Assembly (NCBI GenBank): GCA_018066285.1
Contig: JAGHRS010000045.1
Coordinates: 1-47,082, forward strand
Source of the DNA: Candidatus Treponema caballi
Lineage (GTDB): Bacteria; Spirochaetota; Spirochaetia; Treponematales; Treponemataceae
Direction of reading: 5' to 3'
DNA length: 47,082 nt
Shown: one piece after another, positions 3,673 through 26,492 of the stretch
Position numbering within the stretch: position 1 is the stretch's first letter
Layout of the letters: each line of letters opens with the position of its first letter
Made by a program: the position numbers and the translations under genes
Notes under the pieces: generated by a model
Database searches by the model: none
Told to the model about the DNA's origin: nothing
The model's input: the letters and a program-made list of their open reading frames with translations, nothing else

Positions 3673-5880
3673 ATGGAAAAGCACATATCCAATACATTTA
3701 CACTGGGAGACCTGACCGCCCGGTACATCATTGAAGAAAATGGACGACCTGTCCTGGACCTCATCCCGACTTCAAAGCTCGGTGATGTTGTAGAACTAAA
3801 AAAATCAAACGGAGACTGCCTTGTCCAGTGTAAGCTGATCGGTGACCAGTATCCGACCGGCTATTCGGGCGGCGTTACGCTCAGAAACAGCGGCACCGTG
3901 GACCACATGCACCTGGTAAAGCAGGATGTACGTAAGCTCACGGATGAGATAAGCGGCAAGCCCCGCACCGAGATTGACACCATCCTTGCAGATGACGCGC
4001 ATCACACATGGATTCACACACTCGGCTTCACGGAAGGAGAGCCGTGCGTTGATTCAAAGACCACGTTCATTAACGGGGAACTGGGGGACGGTTCTCTGGG
4101 ACCAGGGGACGGTTCTCTAGTTACTGGACCAGGGGACGGTTCTCTGGTTCACGACATCATCCCCGCACCAGGGGACGCTTCTTTGGAACTGCTCTCCAGT
4201 TTCAGTCTCAGCAACATAACGCCTTTTTCTGAAGGCGAATCACATAACAAGGTGAAGATCCACCGCATCCGCAGCAAGTGGAGTGACGAAGGCTGGCTCA
4301 TCAGTGAGACCGCTGAGTCGCTCCAGCTTGAACCTGCGTGGGCGTACTGGCCCGCAAAGTCAATCCGCTACGGACAGATCGGCACCATGCCGGTCCGCAC
4401 CTTCGCCCCGTTCGGCGCACTTGAAGACACAGAGGCTGGCGTCGTGTGGGCGGCATCTCTTGCCATTGAGTCTTCCTGGCAGATGGAGTTCTACCGCCGT
4501 GACGCGGGCTTCAACTTCTCAGGCGGACTTGCCGACCGCGAATTCGGACATTGGATAAAGACCATTGCCCCAGGCGAAAGCTTTACGACGCCAACTGCCA
4601 TTCTGACAGCCAGCACCCGCGGCGTTGATGACGCCTGTCAGCGTCTGACTTCATGGAACAAAAAGTTCCTCGCTCTTAACCCCGCTTCCGAAGAAAGCCT
4701 GCCTGTCATGTTCAACGAATACTGCACGACATGGGGCACACCGTCTGAAAAGAACATCACCGACATTCTTGATGCGATTGACGGTCACGGCATTGAGTAC
4801 TTTGTCGTAGACTGCGGCTGGTTCCTTGAAGATGGCAAGGACTGGGGCAACTCGATGGGCGACTACATCCCGTCTGATACGCTCTTCCCGAACGGGCTCG
4901 GCGCCGTGACGAAGAAGATTCACGACAAGGGCATGAAGGCCGGCATCTGGTTTGAGATAGACAACATCGGCAAGTTCGCCCACATCTACAATCAGGAAGA
5001 ACTGCTGTTGAAACGCGACGGCCTGGTGCTTGAGACACAGAACAGGCGCTTCTTCGATATGCGGAAGCCTGAGGTAAAAGCATATCTCACGGAACGCGTG
5101 AACGGCACGCTCAAAAAGTACGGCTTTGAGTACATCAAGATGGATTACAACGACACGTACGGTCTTGGCTGTGACGGCGCGGAATCACTTGGTGAAGGAT
5201 TGAGGCAGGACAGGGAAGCATCGCTCGACTTTGTGCGTGCCCTGAAAAAAGACATTCCAAACCTTATCATAGAAAACTGCGCTTCCGGTGGCCACAAGAC
5301 AGAGCCGCTCATGATGTCGCTCGTAAGCCAGGCCTCGTTCAGTGACGCGCATGAATGCACGAACATTCCGGTAATCGCCGCAGCACTCCACAGGACGATA
5401 CTGCCCCGCCAGAGCCAGATCTGGTGCGTCATCAGAAAGACCGACTCGCTCAAGCGGCTCGCCTACTCTGTCGCGGCTACGTTCCTGGGCCGCATGTGCT
5501 TTTCTGGCGACGTGACTGAGCTTACAAAAGAGCAGTGGGCAAAGATTGATGAGGGCATCACGTTCTACAAGCGGATTGTACCGGCAATAAAAGATGGCTA
5601 CACCTGGTTCTTCGGCGACCGCGGCCCCGCTGCCCGTAAGCTCGAAGGCTGGCAGGGCATTCTGCGGCAGGGCGGCGGCGTCACGTACCTGACGGTGCAC
5701 GTGTTTGACAACGCACCGCGCTCGTTTGCGATTGACCTGCCGGAAGAAGTTGCCGCATCACTGAAAGAAGGCATCGTCGGAGAGTACAAGGGCACCGGTA
5801 TAAGCGCAATGCTTTCAGACAGAACGCTCACCGTCACCCGCGACGAGGATATGGAAGCGCTCGCCCTCATACTGCGATAA
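3673..5880 (+). CDS. GH36 alpha-galactosidase with 36-residue repeat-derived insertion
   Basis: Releases alpha-1,6-galactose from raffinose-family oligosaccharides or galactomannan. At 735 residues it matches large GH36 enzymes: N-terminal beta-supersandwich, TIM barrel, C-terminal beta domain. The nucleophile motif KMDYN places Asp at about residue 491. ENCASGG and the SDAHE acid/base motif (Asp about 558) are present. There is no signal peptide. TATACT ends seven bases before the ATG and no Shine-Dalgarno is present, so the mRNA may be leaderless. Residues about 137-172 are a glycine/aspartate-rich insert encoded by four in-frame repeat copies, just before the conserved LELLSSFSLSNITPF. The catalytic barrel is untouched, so activity is plausible. 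Confidence 0.94.
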   Translation: MEKHISNTFTLGDLTARYIIEENGRPVLDLIPTSKLGDVVELKKSNGDCLVQCKLIGDQYPTGYSGGVTLRNSGTVDHMHLVKQDVRKLTDEISGKPRTEIDTILADDAHHTWIHTLGFTEGEPCVDSKTTFINGELGDGSLGPGDGSLVTGPGDGSLVHDIIPAPGDASLELLSSFSLSNITPFSEGESHNKVKIHRIRSKWSDEGWLISETAESLQLEPAWAYWPAKSIRYGQIGTMPVRTFAPFGALEDTEAGVVWAASLAIESSWQMEFYRRDAGFNFSGGLADREFGHWIKTIAPGESFTTPTAILTASTRGVDDACQRLTSWNKKFLALNPASEESLPVMFNEYCTTWGTPSEKNITDILDAIDGHGIEYFVVDCGWFLEDGKDWGNSMGDYIPSDTLFPNGLGAVTKKIHDKGMKAGIWFEIDNIGKFAHIYNQEELLLKRDGLVLETQNRRFFDMRKPEVKAYLTERVNGTLKKYGFEYIKMDYNDTYGLGCDGAESLGEGLRQDREASLDFVRALKKDIPNLIIENCASGGHKTEPLMMSLVSQASFSDAHECTNIPVIAAALHRTILPRQSQIWCVIRKTDSLKRLAYSVAATFLGRMCFSGDVTELTKEQWAKIDEGITFYKRIVPAIKDGYTWFFGDRGPAARKLEGWQGILRQGGGVTYLTVHVFDNAPRSFAIDLPEEVAASLKEGIVGEYKGTGISAMLSDRTLTVTRDEDMEALALILR
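4083..4185 (+). repeat. Four tandem repeat copies inside the alpha-galactosidase gene
   Basis: Copies at about 4083-4098, 4099-4121, 4126-4149 and a degenerate one at 4167-4185, all sense. The third pairs along its full length. The fourth has GGGGACGCTTCTTTGG, two changes in the core. All are read in one frame (GDGSL, PGDGSLV, PGDGSLV, PGDASL), which suggests local tandem expansion with the reading frame kept. Confidence 0.9.
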
Positions 5881-5884
5881 AACT

Positions 5885-6035
5885 GGGACCAGGGGACGGT
5901 TCTCGCCGGTAGCCAGCGTCCATGCTGGCTACCTTCCCGAGTATTGAGCACAGCAAGTTGTGCTCAATACTCCTTGCTTTTCAGGGCCATCCGTGGCCCT
6001 GGATTTTTCTGGGACCAGGGGACGGTTCTCTGGTC
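5885..6035 (+). repeat. Composite element: repeat, three hairpins, repeat (copy 1)
   Basis: Two direct copies of the repeat (5885-5904 and 6011-6035) bracket three perfect stem-loops. Stem 1 is GGTAGCCAGC at 5908-5917 with its complement at 5924-5933. Stem 2 is the 14-bp GAGTATTGAGCACA at 5939-5952 with 5959-5972. Stem 3 is CAGGGCCA at 5982-5989 with 5994-6001. A second copy in opposite orientation lies at 15198-15344. The block ends 17 bp before the start codon of a GNAT gene. Confidence 0.88.
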
Positions 6036-6847: not shown

Positions 6848-6867
6848 GAGAACCGTCCCCTAGTCCC
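6847..6867 (-). repeat. Repeat copy, antisense to flanking genes
   Basis: Reads GAGAACCGTCCCCTAGTCCC on the plus strand directly after the GNAT stop codon. It is one of only three copies lying antisense between two genes of the same direction. Confidence 0.85.
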
Positions 6868-9296: not shown

Positions 9297-9351
9297 ACCA
9301 GGGGACGGTTCTCTAGTCCTCGAAGTGAATCGGGGGGGACGGTTCTCTAGT
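9297..9351 (+). repeat. Two repeat copies in divergent intergenic region
   Basis: Copies at 9297-9319 and 9331-9351, both plus orientation. The second has seven G residues before ACGG, an expansion of the G-run. Between here and the next gene a small GGAC/GTCC hairpin at about 9389-9404 is visible; nothing else is supported in this gap. Confidence 0.88.
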
Positions 9352-9858: not shown

Positions 9859-9879
9859 AACTAGGGGACGGTTCTCTAT
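9859..9879 (+). repeat. Repeat copy between GNAT and LRR genes
   Basis: Left arm GGAACTAG, core GGGGACGGTTCTCT, then TATATA. It is sense to both flanking genes and lies 28 bp before the start of the LRR gene. Confidence 0.87.
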
Positions 9880-9906: not shown

Positions 9907-10881
9907 ATGGCAGATACATTGCAGCAACTGATTGATTTTTACAATTCTGCGGACGAAAACGGTGTGACAAATCTTGAAAAGGTTCGTACGCATCAGAAAA
10001 TTCTGCGGCGCGTGGAAACGACTGACAAAAACAAGAGCGTGGAAGCTGTAGACAGCACAGCAGCGGAAGACGGTATTCCGAGCGGAATTGTTACGGAGAA
10101 CGGCAAGATCATCGGTTTCGGCATTCACATTTTCAACGAGGACGTGTATCCGCTGAAAAGCTTTGAAATTTACCTCCGAAGCTGTGAACTGACTGGTGAA
10201 CTGAACCTTTCCGACTGCACGGATATGGTCTTCCTCGATGTGTACCACAACAAAATCACTGCGGTGAAGTCAAAGAACATGCCTGCAATGCGTATTTTCG
10301 GAGTGCAGGACAATCTGCTTGAAACGATAGACGTCTCTGAAATGCCACGCTGTCAAGGAATTGACGCCGGAATGAACCGATTGAAAGAACTGGACGTTTC
10401 AAAGAATCCCGAGCTTGTGGAACTGTATATCAACGACAATAATTTTACTGAAATTGACCTTTCCCATAATCAGAAGCTGAAGTATTTCTACTGCCACAAC
10501 AACCGGATTACCAGCCTTGATACGCGGGCAAATCCGCTGCTCCGCCACCTTAACGCGACAGGAAACCCGATGAAATCAATCCGCTCTCTGGCGCCGCAAA
10601 GGGATGAGCCCCTTCCGCTTGAGGTGTACGCAGGAGACGGTGGAAGCGTCGGCCTGAAATTCAATCCGGTGTATAATGCACAGTGGAAGGAAACGGGCGA
10701 ATGGCAGCAGACATACTACGCATATCCCGATGAAGGATATTGCTTTGATGGTTGGTATGAAAATGGCGTAAAGGTTTCCGAAAAAGAAAACTGGACAGAT
10801 GAATACGGCTCGAGTAGAGTTATAGAAGCGCGATTTAAAGGAGGATATCAACGCAACGGGGACCAGGGGACGGTTCTCTAG
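9907..10881 (+). CDS. Leucine-rich-repeat protein ending in a repeat-encoded tail
   Basis: A 324-residue protein. Residues about 75-230 hold irregular leucine-rich repeats of the pattern LxxLDVSxNPxLVELYINxNxxTEIDLS. The C-terminal 90 residues include a YPDEGYCFDGWYENG segment like the Listeria-Bacteroides (InlB B-type) repeat. No signal peptide or lipobox is visible, which is odd for this architecture, so it may be intracellular or a fragment of a surface protein. AAAGGG lies six bases before the ATG. The last residues, DQGTVL, and the TAG stop come from a dispersed repeat copy, so the original C-terminus may have been replaced. Function unknown; a binding role is likely. Confidence 0.75.
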   Translation: MADTLQQLIDFYNSADENGVTNLEKVRTHQKILRRVETTDKNKSVEAVDSTAAEDGIPSGIVTENGKIIGFGIHIFNEDVYPLKSFEIYLRSCELTGELNLSDCTDMVFLDVYHNKITAVKSKNMPAMRIFGVQDNLLETIDVSEMPRCQGIDAGMNRLKELDVSKNPELVELYINDNNFTEIDLSHNQKLKYFYCHNNRITSLDTRANPLLRHLNATGNPMKSIRSLAPQRDEPLPLEVYAGDGGSVGLKFNPVYNAQWKETGEWQQTYYAYPDEGYCFDGWYENGVKVSEKENWTDEYGSSRVIEARFKGGYQRNGDQGTVL

Positions 10882-11418: not shown

Positions 11419-11440
11419 GGGACCAGGGGACGGTTCTCTA
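11419..11440 (+). repeat. Repeat copy between convergent genes
   Basis: GGACCAG plus core, right arm diverged to TATGCTC. The same TATGCTC tail follows the copy at 25625, so the match extends a little past the consensus. Confidence 0.87.
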
Positions 11441-12297: not shown

Positions 12298-12360
12298 GGA
12301 CTGGGGGACGGTTTTCTATGCGAAGAAGGTCCTCTGTATGGACTAGGGGACGGTTCTCTA
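12298..12360 (+). repeat. Two repeat copies antisense to flanking genes
   Basis: Copies at 12298-12319 (GGGGGACGGTTTTCT, one core change) and 12340-12360. Both are plus orientation while the genes on either side read minus. They lie beyond the GMP synthase terminator and may be outside any minus-strand transcript. Confidence 0.87.
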
Positions 12361-13633: not shown

Positions 13634-13702
13634 GGGACTAAGGGACGGTTCTCCAGAACTCTCACCGCTGGGGACTAGGATGGGGACCAGGGGACGGTTC
13701 TC
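13634..13702 (+). repeat. Two repeat copies upstream of the RAYT gene
   Basis: Copies at 13634-13655 (GGGACTAAGGGACGG, one core change) and 13682-13702. They are in the same orientation as the transposase gene and as the copy downstream of it at 14626. Confidence 0.88.
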
Positions 13703-13704
13703 AA

Positions 13705-13737
13705 AAATTTCTTTTTTTTCTGAAAAAAAAGAAATTT
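13705..13737. repeat. 15-bp perfect A/T hairpin beside the upstream repeat
   Basis: AAATTTCTTTTTTTT (13705-13719) pairs exactly with 13723-13737 over CTG. It starts two bases after a repeat copy and 77 bp before the RAYT start codon. It could terminate read-through into the transposase gene or be a recognition structure for it. Confidence 0.75.
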
Positions 13738-13813
13738 CCATTAAGTGACCACACATAATAATTATTTGAGGATTAATTATTCATCTTCAAGTAATCATCA
13801 GTGGAGTTCATAA

Positions 13814-14557
13814 ATGCCAAGAAAAGCCAGGGTCCTCTGCGATAGCAGGACATATCACGTAATGATCAGAGGTATCAACAGACAGTCCATCTTTGAAGAC
13901 GAAGAAGATAAAAGCACATTTCTTTCATTGCTGGTACGCTATAAACAAAAATGTCATTTCAAGCTGCTTGGATATTGCATGATGGGAAATCATGCACATT
14001 TACTGATAAAACTTGGGGATTTTGAACTACAATCCGTGTTCAGACGAATAAATACAGCGTATGCGTATTATTTCAATTTGAAATATGACCGTACCGGGCA
14101 CCTTTTTCAGGATAGATACAAAAGCGAACCTGTCACATCTGACAAACAGCTTCATCAAGTCTTGCGATACATCCATCTGAATCCCGTCAAGGCAGGAATC
14201 TGCTCAAATCCAGAGAAATTCAAAGACAGCAGCTATCAGGATTACTTAAAAGGAAAATCCTCACTGGTTAACACCCACATGATACTTTCGATAATGTCAA
14301 AAACGAGGCTGAAGCAATTCACAGCAGAGCAGAATCAGGACTGTTTTATGGATAATGAATCCAGACGGATTTTTCGGGTTACCGACAAGAAAGCAAAAGA
14401 AATAATATGGATGACATTCGGAGGAAATTCTGCAGCGGATTTCCAAAGACTTGGAAATCCATGGAATTATCTTGTTCTGATGAAACTCAGAAAAAAAAGG
14501 ACTGTCAATCAATCAAATAAGCAGATTAACAGGAACGTCGCGACGTATGGTCATTGA
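13814..14557 (+). CDS. REP-associated tyrosine transposase (RAYT, Y1/HUH family)
   Basis: A 247-residue single-strand DNA transposase-like enzyme of the IS200/IS605-related Y1 superfamily. The HUH motif is H60-A61-H62 within MMGNHAHLLIK. The RAYT-typical GHLFQDRYKSEPV and LRYIHLNPVKAGI follow, the latter holding the likely nucleophile Tyr119. The C-terminal 90 residues are basic and may bind the target hairpin. All key residues are intact and the frame is unbroken, so it is probably active or recently active. GGAG lies seven bases before the ATG. Same-orientation repeat copies flank it, two upstream and one downstream, and there is no paired transposase end of the IS200 kind. Known RAYTs are single-copy domesticated enzymes that act on REP hairpins. 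Confidence 0.93.
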   Translation: MPRKARVLCDSRTYHVMIRGINRQSIFEDEEDKSTFLSLLVRYKQKCHFKLLGYCMMGNHAHLLIKLGDFELQSVFRRINTAYAYYFNLKYDRTGHLFQDRYKSEPVTSDKQLHQVLRYIHLNPVKAGICSNPEKFKDSSYQDYLKGKSSLVNTHMILSIMSKTRLKQFTAEQNQDCFMDNESRRIFRVTDKKAKEIIWMTFGGNSAADFQRLGNPWNYLVLMKLRKKRTVNQSNKQINRNVATYGH

Positions 14558-14625
14558 AGCTGGAAAACGATTGGTGTCATGAAGAACAGATTTTGAAAGC
14601 AAGAAACCAGTGGAAACCAGGGGAA

Positions 14626-14645
14626 ACCAGGGGACGGTTCTCTAG
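14626..14645 (+). repeat. Repeat copy downstream of the RAYT gene
   Basis: Full core preceded by three short direct repeats of GAAACCAG at about 14604, 14613 and 14623, as if the left arm had been copied several times. It lies between the convergent RAYT and GNAT genes. Confidence 0.88.
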
Positions 14646-15197: not shown

Positions 15198-15344
15198 AAG
15201 AGAACCGTCCCCTGGTTTCTATCAGATCCAGGGCCATGGATGGCCCTGGAAAGCAAGGAGTATTATGCACAGCTCCTGTGCATAATACTCGGGAAGGCAG
15301 CCAGCATGGATACTGGTTACCGGCGAGAACCGTCCCCTAGTCCC
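15198..15344 (-). repeat. Composite element: repeat, three hairpins, repeat (copy 2)
   Basis: Inverted copy of the element at 5885-6035. Outer repeats lie at 15198-15218 and 15325-15344. The middle stem is GAGTATTATGCACAG (15258-15272) with 15276-15290, 15 bp. Relative to copy 1 it has two compensatory pair changes, G-C to A-T and A-T to T-A. CCAGGGCCA (15228-15236) pairs with 15241-15249. The third stem (15296-15321) is imperfect here. Confidence 0.88.
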
Positions 15345-16137: not shown

Positions 16138-16160
16138 GACCAGAGAACCGTCCCCTAGTC
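16138..16160 (-). repeat. Repeat copy upstream of GDPD
   Basis: A full-length copy with a complete 11-bp stem (one T-G pair in the outer arm). It is followed to about 16184 by decayed CTAGTCCCC units. Confidence 0.88.
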
Positions 16161-19501: not shown

Positions 19502-20169
19502 TTTGTGTCTCCTTCGCTTTCAGTGGATAGAGAACCGTCCCCTGGTTCCAGCTCCTGCGCTCGTTCTGGAGAACCGTCCCCTGGTCCACCGGCAACTGGC
19601 GGACGGCGTTTCAGCGAGAACGCGTACACGACAAGACCGAGCACGAGAGACGCGACAACAACAAGCACAGTCGGCGCCCGGAACACGACGATCGCGGAGA
19701 AGGCAGCTGTGAACAGCAGGAGCTTCCACCAGACAAGGATTTTCTTTATGAAGGTGACGACCGCTTTGCACAGCAGCGCGGCTACCGCAATATTAATACC
19801 CATGAGCGCTTTCTGTACCCACACTATCTGGGTGAAGTTTTCAAGGAAGCTTGCGATTACTGAAATGATGATGAGGGAAGGAGTTACGACACCGAGCGTT
19901 GCAATGGTGCCGCCCAGAACGCCCGCCTGCGTGTAGCCGATGAAGGTAGCCACGTTCACCGCGATGATGCCGGGCGTCATCTGGCCAATGGCGAAATAAT
20001 CAAGCAGCGTCTCTTTTGTAACCCAGTTACGCTTGTCCGCAAGTTCGCTTTCAAGAATAGGCAGCATGGCAAGACCGCCGCCAAACGTAACGGCACCAAT
20101 CTTGAAAAAGACGGCAAAAAGCTCAAGCAGCCTACAGAACCGTCCCCTGGTATCTTTCTTCTCGTTCAT
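19498..20169 (-). CDS. Chromate-transporter family protein, first half, with repeat-coded ends
   Basis: A 223-residue partner of the following gene. FKIGAVTFGGGLAML and GQMTPGIIAVNVATFIG are the ChrA motifs. The start is taken at ATG 20169 (MNEKKDTRGRFC). The residues DTRGRF are read from a repeat in a different frame from the other genes. Upstream, the only ribosome-site candidate is the AGGGGACGG of another repeat copy. The C-terminal tail contains PGDGSP and PGDGSL from two more copies. Both ends of this membrane protein are thus repeat-built, while the transmembrane core is intact. Confidence 0.83.
   Translation of the reverse strand: MNEKKDTRGRFCRLLELFAVFFKIGAVTFGGGLAMLPILESELADKRNWVTKETLLDYFAIGQMTPGIIAVNVATFIGYTQAGVLGGTIATLGVVTPSLIIISVIASFLENFTQIVWVQKALMGINIAVAALLCKAVVTFIKKILVWWKLLLFTAAFSAIVVFRAPTVLVVVASLVLGLVVYAFSLKRRPPVAGGPGDGSPERAQELEPGDGSLSTESEGDTK
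19527..19587 (-). repeat. Two in-frame repeat copies at the C-terminus of the ChrA-type gene
   Basis: Copies at 19527-19548 and 19567-19587, sense to the gene. They encode PGDGSP and PGDGSL in a charged tail just before the stop codon. Confidence 0.9.
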
Positions 20170-20249
20170 ACAGAACCGTCCCCTGGTTCCTGACTCATCC
20201 GTCACCACAGAACCGTCCCCTAGTATACTATAGAACCGTCCCCTAGTAC
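20134..20249 (-). repeat. Cluster of four repeat copies at divergent ChrA/MATE promoters
   Basis: Copies begin near 20134, 20170, 20206 and 20230. The first lies inside the ChrA-type gene, the next three in the intergenic region. Core starts are 36, 37 and 23 bases apart. Right arms are mostly degenerate (CTGT instead of CTCT). A TATAGTATACT sequence between the last two could be a -10 box for the minus-strand operon. Confidence 0.9.
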
Positions 20250-21699: not shown

Positions 21700-22677
21700 C
21701 TAGCTTCTGACAGGCGCCCACTCAGGTTCATACTCGCCCGGATACACGCGGATAGAGCATGCTTCCATGCACACCTCATCAACAAACTTCTGGATATCCT
21801 GGGCGAACGGCGAGAAAAGGTCGTCAGGCGAATATGACAGATCGAGCACCGTCTCCTCGCCCTCGAAAGCAGCCCGTGAAAAAGCACCCTGAAGAGAGAC
21901 CATGTCTTCAACCGCAGGATACACATGCGGCATCTTCTTTTCCTCGTACTTGAACTTCAGGAATGCGAGCTGCATTTTCTCAAGCTCAGCGTGTGACGCG
22001 CCTTCAAGAGAGAAACCTGATGACAGACCACAGTTGTTGCAGCGCTGCCACTCGGCAAAGTCTGAAAGGAACGCGGATGGCTTCAGGCGGAGCGGATGAA
22101 GCACCGTCAGAAACCACGGCACGGCGCGGCCTTCGGTATAGAAAGCGTCTGAAGCAAACGACAGATTCTTAAGAAGCGTGATGTCCTGCGTTGAAAGACG
22201 CGGGCCGGCCTTGACGCCATCGAATGAGAAATACATGTGGTTCGGATACTGCTGAATCAGGAAATCGAGGAGCTCGCGGAAGTTCTTTACGCCGAACGTT
22301 TCGCTGTCAAAAGCGGAACAGTCCGCATCGAAACCGAACACAAGCCCCATGTCATTAAGGAGCGCGCACTTTTTCTCAAGCGATTTACGCTGGTTCTGCC
22401 AGTCTGCGCTCACGTCGATTGAAAGCGAGCAGTACAGTTCCGAGGCAGTCTCTGCGACCTGGCGGTCAATGACCATGTGCGGCAGATGAATGTCAAACAG
22501 TACATCCGGCGTTTTGCGCGCGGCTGCTTTCATGAAGCGGATGAGATTATCTTTTGAAGAAGTAAGCTGGCGGTCGTACACCGTGAACTGGCGGATATCC
22601 TTTTCCTTAAAGGAATCAAGCGCCTTTTCAAGTGAACCTGCCGCAAAATCGAAATGCCTGTCTGTACCTGAGTTCAT
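21700..22677 (-). CDS. Unknown protein translationally coupled to asnA
   Basis: I do not recognise this 325-residue soluble protein. It has alternating helix/strand predicted blocks such as DVLFDIHLPHMVIDR, MYFSFDGVKAGPRLS and WFLTVLHPLRLKPSAFL, compatible with a TIM-barrel-like fold. A CNNCG segment could bind metal, but there is no radical-SAM CxxxCxxC. The ATG shares its A with the asnA stop (TGATG), so translation is coupled and a link to asparagine or aspartate metabolism is possible. A GTG at 22707 is an alternative start inside asnA. Confidence 0.6.
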   Translation of the reverse strand: MNSGTDRHFDFAAGSLEKALDSFKEKDIRQFTVYDRQLTSSKDNLIRFMKAAARKTPDVLFDIHLPHMVIDRQVAETASELYCSLSIDVSADWQNQRKSLEKKCALLNDMGLVFGFDADCSAFDSETFGVKNFRELLDFLIQQYPNHMYFSFDGVKAGPRLSTQDITLLKNLSFASDAFYTEGRAVPWFLTVLHPLRLKPSAFLSDFAEWQRCNNCGLSSGFSLEGASHAELEKMQLAFLKFKYEEKKMPHVYPAVEDMVSLQGAFSRAAFEGEETVLDLSYSPDDLFSPFAQDIQKFVDEVCMEACSIRVYPGEYEPEWAPVRS

Positions 22678-25520: not shown

Positions 25521-26492
25521 ATGAAACACAAAACACTCCGCGTTTTCTATATTTGTCTTCTGCTCTTTTTCGCAGCATGTCTGTCCGTGAACCAGGGGAC
25601 GGTTCTCTATGCCCAGACTCATGTGGACCAGGGGACGGTTCTCTATGCTCAAAATGAAGCTCTCGTTCTCGGCGACGACATCCAGCTGCCAGTCTGCCCT
25701 TCCACAACAGGTGCAGGCGTTGAAAGCGGCCATGAGTTCAGAAGCTTTTCAGGTTACACCATCTGCTACCGTGAAGAGTACGAGCAGCCGGAATGGGCCG
25801 CTTACACATTGACGGCCGAAAAGCTCGTTAAGAATGCCTCCCGCGAAGACAACTTCCGCCCTGACCCGAAGATCAGCACAGGCTCAGCGTCCCTTGCTGA
25901 CTACAAGGGTTCAGGCTATGACCGCGGGCACCTGGCCCCGGCTGCTGATTTTGCTTACAGCGAAGAGGCAATGAGCGACTCGTTTTATTTAAGCAACATG
26001 AGCCCGCAGAACGGCAGCTTCAACCGCGGCATCTGGGCAAAGCTCGAAGCCGCCGTGCGTGACTGGGCCGGTGAGACGCTCATCACGTATGTGGTGACAG
26101 GTCCCGTTCTTGAAAAGCCCGCCAGCGGGTACGGCTTCATCGGAGCGAATGAGATCAGCGTTCCCGAGTACTATTACAAGGCGCTGCTGTTTGTGTACGA
26201 GGATGGCGCCGTTGCCGCTGCTGGAGGCACATCCGGTGCGGCTGACAGCGCAAAAACGCCAGCTGCTTTGACGACCGCTGGCGCATCCGCTGAAACGCTC
26301 ATCAGCGCCACGACAAGCGACGGTCAGCAGGTGTGGCTCTTTGCGACCGGCTACCTGCTTCCAAACGAAAAGGGCAGCGCCGACCTCGCGTCGTTCACCG
26401 TGAGCATAGATGACGTCGAATCGCGCACCGGCCTCGACTTTTTCAGTCTGCTGCCTGATGTATATGAAGACGCGCTCGAAGCAGCGAGGTGA
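25521..26492 (+). CDS. Secreted DNA/RNA non-specific endonuclease (NucA/NucG type)
   Basis: A 323-residue extracytoplasmic nuclease of the beta-beta-alpha-metal fold. The N-terminal hydrophobic segment ends FFAAC, a plausible spirochaete lipobox, so it may be a lipoprotein. The catalytic motif DRGHLAPAADF has Asp134 and the general-base His137, and LSNMSPQNGSFNRGIW supplies the Mg2+-binding Asn. Directly after the signal segment, NQGTVLYAQ and DQGTVLYAQ come from two repeat copies, before the mature domain. An alanine/threonine-rich loop at about 235-265 is atypical. Likely role: nucleic-acid scavenging or defence. Confidence 0.9.
   Translation: MKHKTLRVFYICLLLFFAACLSVNQGTVLYAQTHVDQGTVLYAQNEALVLGDDIQLPVCPSTTGAGVESGHEFRSFSGYTICYREEYEQPEWAAYTLTAEKLVKNASREDNFRPDPKISTGSASLADYKGSGYDRGHLAPAADFAYSEEAMSDSFYLSNMSPQNGSFNRGIWAKLEAAVRDWAGETLITYVVTGPVLEKPASGYGFIGANEISVPEYYYKALLFVYEDGAVAAAGGTSGAADSAKTPAALTTAGASAETLISATTSDGQQVWLFATGYLLPNEKGSADLASFTVSIDDVESRTGLDFFSLLPDVYEDALEAAR
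25589..25646 (+). repeat. Two in-frame repeat copies after the nuclease signal peptide
   Basis: Copies at 25589-25611 and 25625-25646, sense to the gene. They are read in a frame giving QGTVLYAQ twice. They are the last copies in the window; none follow in the remaining 21 kb. Confidence 0.9.

Follow-up and report, generated by a model that had tools for sequence, protein, structure and literature searches.

A RAYT-type transposase gene of Candidatus Treponema caballi and its probable cognate hairpin repeat with a constant loop and a variable stem

Introduction

RAYT (TnpA-REP) enzymes are best described together with GTAG-tagged REPs, which form the REPtrons and REPINs of E. coli, Pseudomonas and Stenotrophomonas. 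In these systems a single-copy Y1 HUH enzyme with a Y---NP motif and the fold of 4er8 is encoded by a gene that is flanked by its own hairpin repeat, and the repeat is also dispersed. Local accumulation of repeats around the RAYT, also after horizontal transfer (Thauera), was found in gamma- and betaproteobacteria (PMC2817692), and RAYTs are regarded as domesticated (PMC8049555). Whether RAYTs spread the repeats, and how the repeats are recognised, has been studied mainly in the GTAG systems of Proteobacteria. Another type is the TIRYT, or TIRtron (PMC3733652), which corresponds to TnpA-Y1 subclass 2.1 (PMC6006769) and to group 1 of Bertels. Inverted repeats bearing GGGGWSAS are described for TIRYTs in PMC3733652, which also reports intragenic REPs, and Quentin et al. 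found no REP-like structures for subclass 2.1 (PMC6006769).

Here we describe a RAYT locus of Candidatus Treponema caballi, where the window is the whole stretch of DNA analysed (47,082 nt). The locus shares with the canonical systems the single-copy Y1 HUH enzyme, the Y---NP motif, the predicted fold and a gene flanked by its own, also dispersed, hairpin repeat. It differs in that no GTAG is present and the constant part of the repeat is the loop, not the foot or the stem; in addition, REPINs are inverted pairs, whereas the close pairs in the window are direct (9/9). The nearest relatives of the window enzyme are the TIRYTs of subclass 2.1, which likewise have NH-x-H, FQ and YIHLNP motifs, a length of about 240-250 aa, a GGGGWSAS-like motif in the flanking repeats and, in some genomes, repeat families of moderate size. 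The C-terminal helix-turn-helix (HTH) of TIRYTs has a putative counterpart here in the +1 frame alone. Measured against GGGGWSAS, GGGGACGG of the window departs at position 7, whereas GGGGACAG of a sister RAYT clade fits. The terminal repeats of TIRYTs are described as inverted, whereas the window flanks (13689, 14629) are direct, and inverted flanks are seen in Alkaliphilus (L054, L060). Unlike what was reported for subclass 2.1, hairpins with covarying stems are present here. IS200/IS605 elements have the HUH/Y1 catalytic fold and hairpin substrates in common with this locus, but they exist as multiple near-identical transposase copies, whereas one gene and far more numerous repeats are found here. 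The system works like RAYT-REP and is best filed beside the TIRYTs, with the proviso that the window copy has neither inverted flanks nor a strict GGGGWSAS.

Results

The open reading frame at 13814-14557 (+ strand) encodes a RAYT-type HUH/Y1 transposase of 247 aa. In the alignment with relatives, N59-H60-A61-H62, F98-Q99 and Y119 within YIHLNP were found, and the HUH/Y core was fully conserved. The protein matched Pfam Y1_Tnp with 60 bits and the NCBIfam RAYT model NF047646 with 77.6 bits, which is 2.4 bits under the cut-off of 80 bits, a naming threshold rather than a biological feature. A structure model built from 16 relatives (mean pLDDT 80) had TnpA-REP 4er8 as its top PDB match (E 4.5e-8), and 4er8 was the sole match when the PDB was searched by sequence. 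Compared with the motifs and length given for TIRYTs (Y[IV]HLNP, FQ, near 238 aa), the window enzyme has YIHLNP, LFQD and 247 aa. The whole host genome (2.91 Mb, 99.8% complete) contains one Y1_Tnp match, the window RAYT.

The relatives terminate in an HTH (...SIRQISRITGISKSVIDR). The window ORF terminates in ...KKRTVNQSNKQINRNVATYGH, and the +1 frame encodes EKKGLSINQISRLTGTSRRMVIEAGKRLVS. The point at which the reading frame departs from that of the conserved HTH is an A8 tract at 14491-14498 (+), and the putative HTH follows in the +1 frame at 14499-14582 (+; GLSINQISRLTGTSRRMVIEAGKRLVS), as judged from the relatives, which have weak HTH Pfam matches. By this comparison, a one-base frameshift at the A8 tract separates the predicted HTH from the main frame. 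The shift may have arisen in the assembly, may mark a site of slippage or may be a true mutation; the window RAYT may be decaying now, or it may be expressed via slippage at the tract. The earlier note on this DNA had called the RAYT intact, which is correct for the catalytic core (H60-A61-H62, Y119) but not for the C-terminal HTH, which is out of frame by one base.

The window was scanned for AGGGGACGGTTCT with at most 2 mismatches, and 31 matches were observed, compared with 0.68 expected by chance. One match, at 21845, is without any flanking consensus and looks like chance, so it was discarded. The remaining 30 extend from 1510 to 25642, in agreement with the earlier estimate of 28-30 copies between 1.5 and 25.65 kb. 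Around the RAYT, repeat cores were located at 13640-13652 (upstream, 1 mismatch), 13689-13701 (124 bp upstream) and 14629-14641 (72 bp downstream), all on the + strand, which bears out the same-orientation copies noted before on both sides of the gene. At the left of the window, two cores on the - strand lie in sense in an alpha-L-rhamnosidase-like gene (1510-1522, in frame; 1537-1549), and four on the + strand lie in the glycosidase gene 3673-5880 (4083-4095, sense; 4104-4116; 4131-4143; 4170-4182, 1 mismatch). The cores at 5891-5903 and 6017-6029 (+) are the left and right ends of a first composite element described below. Intergenic cores follow at 6849-6861 (-) and at 9300-9312, 9334-9346, 9863-9875, 11425-11437 and 12345-12357 (all +), together with one in the last codons of an LRR protein gene (10865-10877, +) and one with 2 mismatches (12303-12315, +). 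On the other side of the RAYT, the - strand carries the right (15201-15213) and left (15326-15338) ends of a second composite element, a core on the stem GGGACTAG/CTGGTCCC (16144-16156), one core at the 3' end of a chromate-transporter gene (19531-19543, sense), two others in the same gene (19570-19582 and, in its start region, 20136-20148) and three more at 20172-20184, 20209-20221 and 20232-20244. The last two cores lie in sense in the nuclease gene 25521-26492 (25594-25606 and 25630-25642, +). The copies often adjoin gene ends or ribosome-binding sites. All nine close pairs in the window are direct, and the spacers between adjoining copies are unique.

A count across the whole genome had been proposed in the earlier note as a check. 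The exact 12-mer GGGGACGGTTCT occurs 63 times, whereas the reversed-pattern control gave 0, and this core is nearly invariant among the copies of the genome. Of the 63 copies, 27 are at most 12.7 kb away from the RAYT, in a region that makes up 0.87% of the genome (p about 1e-38). The same note had held that an equal repeat density in close relatives lacking a RAYT would speak against the link. In six genomes of the same genus, for which a RAYT search at E 1e-10 gave no match, the 12-mer is present in 0-1 copies each, compared with 63 here. Identity with the congeners is about 45-70% in the compared genes, too low for an empty site to be read at single-base level. The 12-mer is also dense, with no RAYT match, at C7:5460-14527, C1:5117-34568 and C42:32707-32968 of the host genome; on the chromosome these patches may adjoin the window, the assembly being a draft, or they may be former RAYT sites.

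The conserved unit in the host genome is about KGRACYR-GGGGACGGTTCT-STRGTNCC, and full copies fold as GTGAACCAG...CTGGTTCAC. The same loop is found on the stem GGAAGCA/TGCTTCC in B. massilionigeriensis, whereas Pseudalkalibacillus and Bacillus NTK071 have it on the stem GAATCAC/GTGATTC. In these three Bacillota genomes, 98%, 86% and 70% of the copies form a stem of 5 bp or longer, compared with only 32% in the host genome. When the arms were swapped between genomes as a control, the value was 2-7%. When consensus stems were compared across 24 genomes, the pair at -4/+16 was CG in 8, GC in 8, AT in 3 and TA in 2, and the mean pairing was 5.5 of 8, compared with a mean of 4.08 and a maximum of 5.0 in 20,000 permutations. 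Within the host copies alone, stem covariation is weak per position; it was accepted because the between-genome tests (arm swap and 24-genome consensus) are decisive. Hence, the repeat is a hairpin in which all genomes share the 12-nt loop but differ in the stem, whose two arms covary. Weak stems also occur at several Bacillaceae loci. An alternative internal hairpin, GAACC/GGTTC, was rejected since position -4 is too variable. The GT[AG]G foot of canonical REPs is absent from the repeat consensus KGRACYR-GGGGACGGTTCT-STRGT, so that of the REP system proposed earlier the likeness to RAYT-REP stands, whereas the repeat falls outside the canonical GTAG type. Rfam gave no match in the window, a literature search for the 12-mer returned no matching repeat description, and for a constant loop on variable stems paired with RAYT clades no description was found in the openly searchable literature.

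A survey of 193 genomes of the Bacillaceae, the family of B. massilionigeriensis, showed the 12-mer in 150 of them, with up to 290 copies (reversed controls 0-3). With the RAYT subclade assigned by match length, the median was 50 copies in the 39 genomes with the longer subclade, compared with 2 in those with the sister subclade only (16 genomes) or with neither (136) (Mann-Whitney p 4e-12). Six genomes without a long RAYT still hold at least 25 copies. The flanks of RAYTs of the longer subclade contain GGGGACGGTTC in 7 of 10 cases and those of the sister subclade contain RGGGACAGG in 18 of 20; the sister clade pairs with RGGGACAGGT instead of GGGGACGGTTCT. A tree built from 52 RAYTs places every one of the 27 GACAGGT-flanked rows in a single clade (support 96/92) with no GACGGTTC row inside it, and the window RAYT is outside this clade. 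Loop type agrees with RAYT clade without exception among the 52 rows. Of the 59 copies in B. massilionigeriensis, which has three RAYTs, 17 are found no more than 12.5 kb from the cognate RAYT and 0 near the other two. Around 20 RAYTs in 19 further genomes, 200 copies were found, compared with 7.0 expected; the nearest of these are partly the flanking repeats of the RAYT itself, and the enrichment is still seen to 8-9 kb. The link between RAYT and repeat is made firmer by the pairing of loop and clade, the crowding in Bacillaceae and the near absence from congeners. The cognate relation suggested in the earlier note is supported, as copy number, crowding and loop type all follow one RAYT subclade.

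Several further features of these loci were recorded. Of the close repeat pairs at the Bacillaceae loci, 40 of 70 are convergent. Single copies at loci L166-L185 tend to point towards the RAYT (44:23 on the left, 29:17 on the right), with much of the signal from one genome (G192), and the tendency was noted for the window too. Clustering in another genome (G099) around a RAYT of the L036 type was not taken as cognate, since the RAYT there carries the other loop type. Upstream of the shorter RAYTs of the host's order (L004-L031) there is usually a + oriented motif resembling RGGGACAGAGC, and one genome of the order (G080) has 24 such genes. A hairpin test on the GGGACAGAGC motif near other RAYTs of this order failed, the motif not being in a hairpin loop, and we therefore do not extend the loop model to these RAYTs.

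The best full-length relatives of the window RAYT outside the host genome are from Bacillota (Alkaliphilus, Sporomusa, Bacillus and others), with 36-47% identity. It groups with the Bacillota RAYTs and with one genome of the same family (L003), whereas the remaining RAYTs of the order cluster elsewhere. By this sequence comparison, the host system was probably gained horizontally from Bacillota. The exact donor is uncertain because the branch of the window RAYT is long and its position inside the long-RAYT clade is not settled by the 52-row tree. Three RAYTs of Alkaliphilus serpentinus have the same loop next to them, and at one of the three the repeats are inverted. Another observation in this species is that one RAYT (L065) shares with the window RAYT both the flanking loop and an HUH motif of the form NHAH, which is unusual.

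Two composite elements, in each of which a three-hairpin element of about 100 nt lies between direct repeats, were found in the window at 5891-6029 (+) and 15201-15338 (-), with the three-hairpin element itself at 5904-6004 (+) and 15226-15325 (-). A third two-sided composite is on contig C7, and a fourth copy, in prmC (L078 9273-10325), is one-sided, with an in-frame element and one repeat that are absent from the congener compared. Outside the window, the copies of the element in the host genome are at C7:11128, C13:45716, C1:9124, C47:107337 and C64:15010. It has conserved linkers and compensatory stem changes, and 4 of the 7 host copies adjoin the RAYT repeat at an identical junction, with CTC abutting GYCGG. 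Since the element alone is found in all seven genomes of the genus (1-8 copies each), it is an independent repeat family to which the loop repeats became attached.

Gene context was taken from a simple gene caller. On this basis, 30 of the 63 copies in the host genome are intragenic, 29 of them in sense. Two matches (L075, L084) look like natural codons of conserved motifs and were set aside, leaving a sense to antisense ratio of 27 to 1, and in intergenic tandem contexts the orientation is 9 to 9. The genes concerned, named in part by reading the sequences, include polA, metH, prmC and glycosidase, rhamnosidase, nuclease and metal ATPase genes; the copies inside polA, metH and prmC are in frame. 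The peptide contributed by an intragenic copy is (E/G)PGDGSLV or QGTVL, and it lies in a linker or at a terminus, where congeners vary. This intragenic habit is not common to B. massilionigeriensis, where all 55 copies examined are intergenic. Replication-strand bias was rejected as the cause of the sense orientation, since the orientation flips with the gene strand within 25 kb, and so were stop codons, since two of the three frames of the consensus unit, read by hand, are open on both strands. It is possible that the bias comes from transcriptional exposure of the non-template strand, or from selection on the encoded peptide. As described in the accessible part of PMC3733652, Rickettsia palindromic elements and intragenic REPs are also short palindromic in-frame inserts in housekeeping genes, including those for DNA replication and repair. 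They differ in that a cognate RAYT is nearby here, and a sense-strand bias is not reported in that part of the source.

Discussion

We propose that the window carries a RAYT-type single-strand DNA transposase with a cognate hairpin repeat of about 27-30 nt, in which the loop GGGGACGGTTCT is the constant, recognised part and the stem differs between genomes, and that the system was probably gained horizontally from Bacillota. We put the probability of this reading at roughly 0.8. We infer binding, cleavage and present-day mobility of the system, and its action may be pictured as follows. The HUH domain would bind the single-stranded hairpin, with the C-terminal HTH aiding recognition, and Tyr119 would nick beside the hairpin and join the strand to other single-stranded DNA in the vicinity. 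Spread would be mostly local, such that copies accumulate up to roughly 10-15 kb from the RAYT and only some escape further.

The same family mechanism may have been at work only in the past: the RAYT would have spread the repeats while it was active and would since have been inactivated by the frameshift, so that they are relics and nothing is moving in the host genome. We consider this quite possible, if short of an even chance. The frameshift ahead of the HTH, the low share of stems of at least 5 bp (32%, compared with 70-98% in the three Bacillota genomes) and another genome (G100), in which the cognate-type RAYT is a short ORF with a stop while copies persist around it, are all consistent with such decay. 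The fully conserved HUH/Y core and the nearly invariant 12-mer argue against it, and the shift lies in an A8 tract, where an assembly error or slippage is plausible.

If the protein were instead a domesticated DNA-binding protein, the hairpin sites would be kept for a host function (mRNA stability, termination or nucleoid) and local copies would arise through duplication or gene conversion, not strand transfer. The RAYT is single-copy, its repeats often lie beside gene ends or ribosome-binding sites, and the literature view of RAYTs as domesticated (PMC8049555) points the same way; but the in-frame copies in polA, metH and prmC, the spacers between neighbours, which are unique, unlike those of a tandem duplication, and the near absence of copies from six congeners make this explanation unlikely. 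A chance proximity, in which the repeats have nothing to do with the RAYT and serve, for instance, as binding sites of a regulator, is highly improbable and already contradicted, because type, number and position all track one RAYT subclade across genomes.

To the preferred reading of a transposase with its cognate hairpin repeat, we add a tentative proposal, which we hold at somewhat under even odds. A distinct RAYT lineage may read the loop and not the foot, with GGGGACGGTTCT (in the sister lineage RGGGACAGGTTC) as the address and the stem free to change between hosts. Spread would take place mainly near the gene, and in the host genome entry into coding sequence would be almost only in sense, as if single-stranded DNA exposed by transcription were targeted.

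The steep local gradient around the RAYT is indirect evidence that the enzyme drives the spread of the repeats. Through the in-frame copies in polA, metH and prmC, the repeats add peptide segments to core proteins. Two sister RAYT clades, two loops and hundreds of natural Bacillaceae copies with variable stems constitute a ready-made swap experiment, and the loop-tagged hairpins make a little-known pairing of enzyme and repeat testable.
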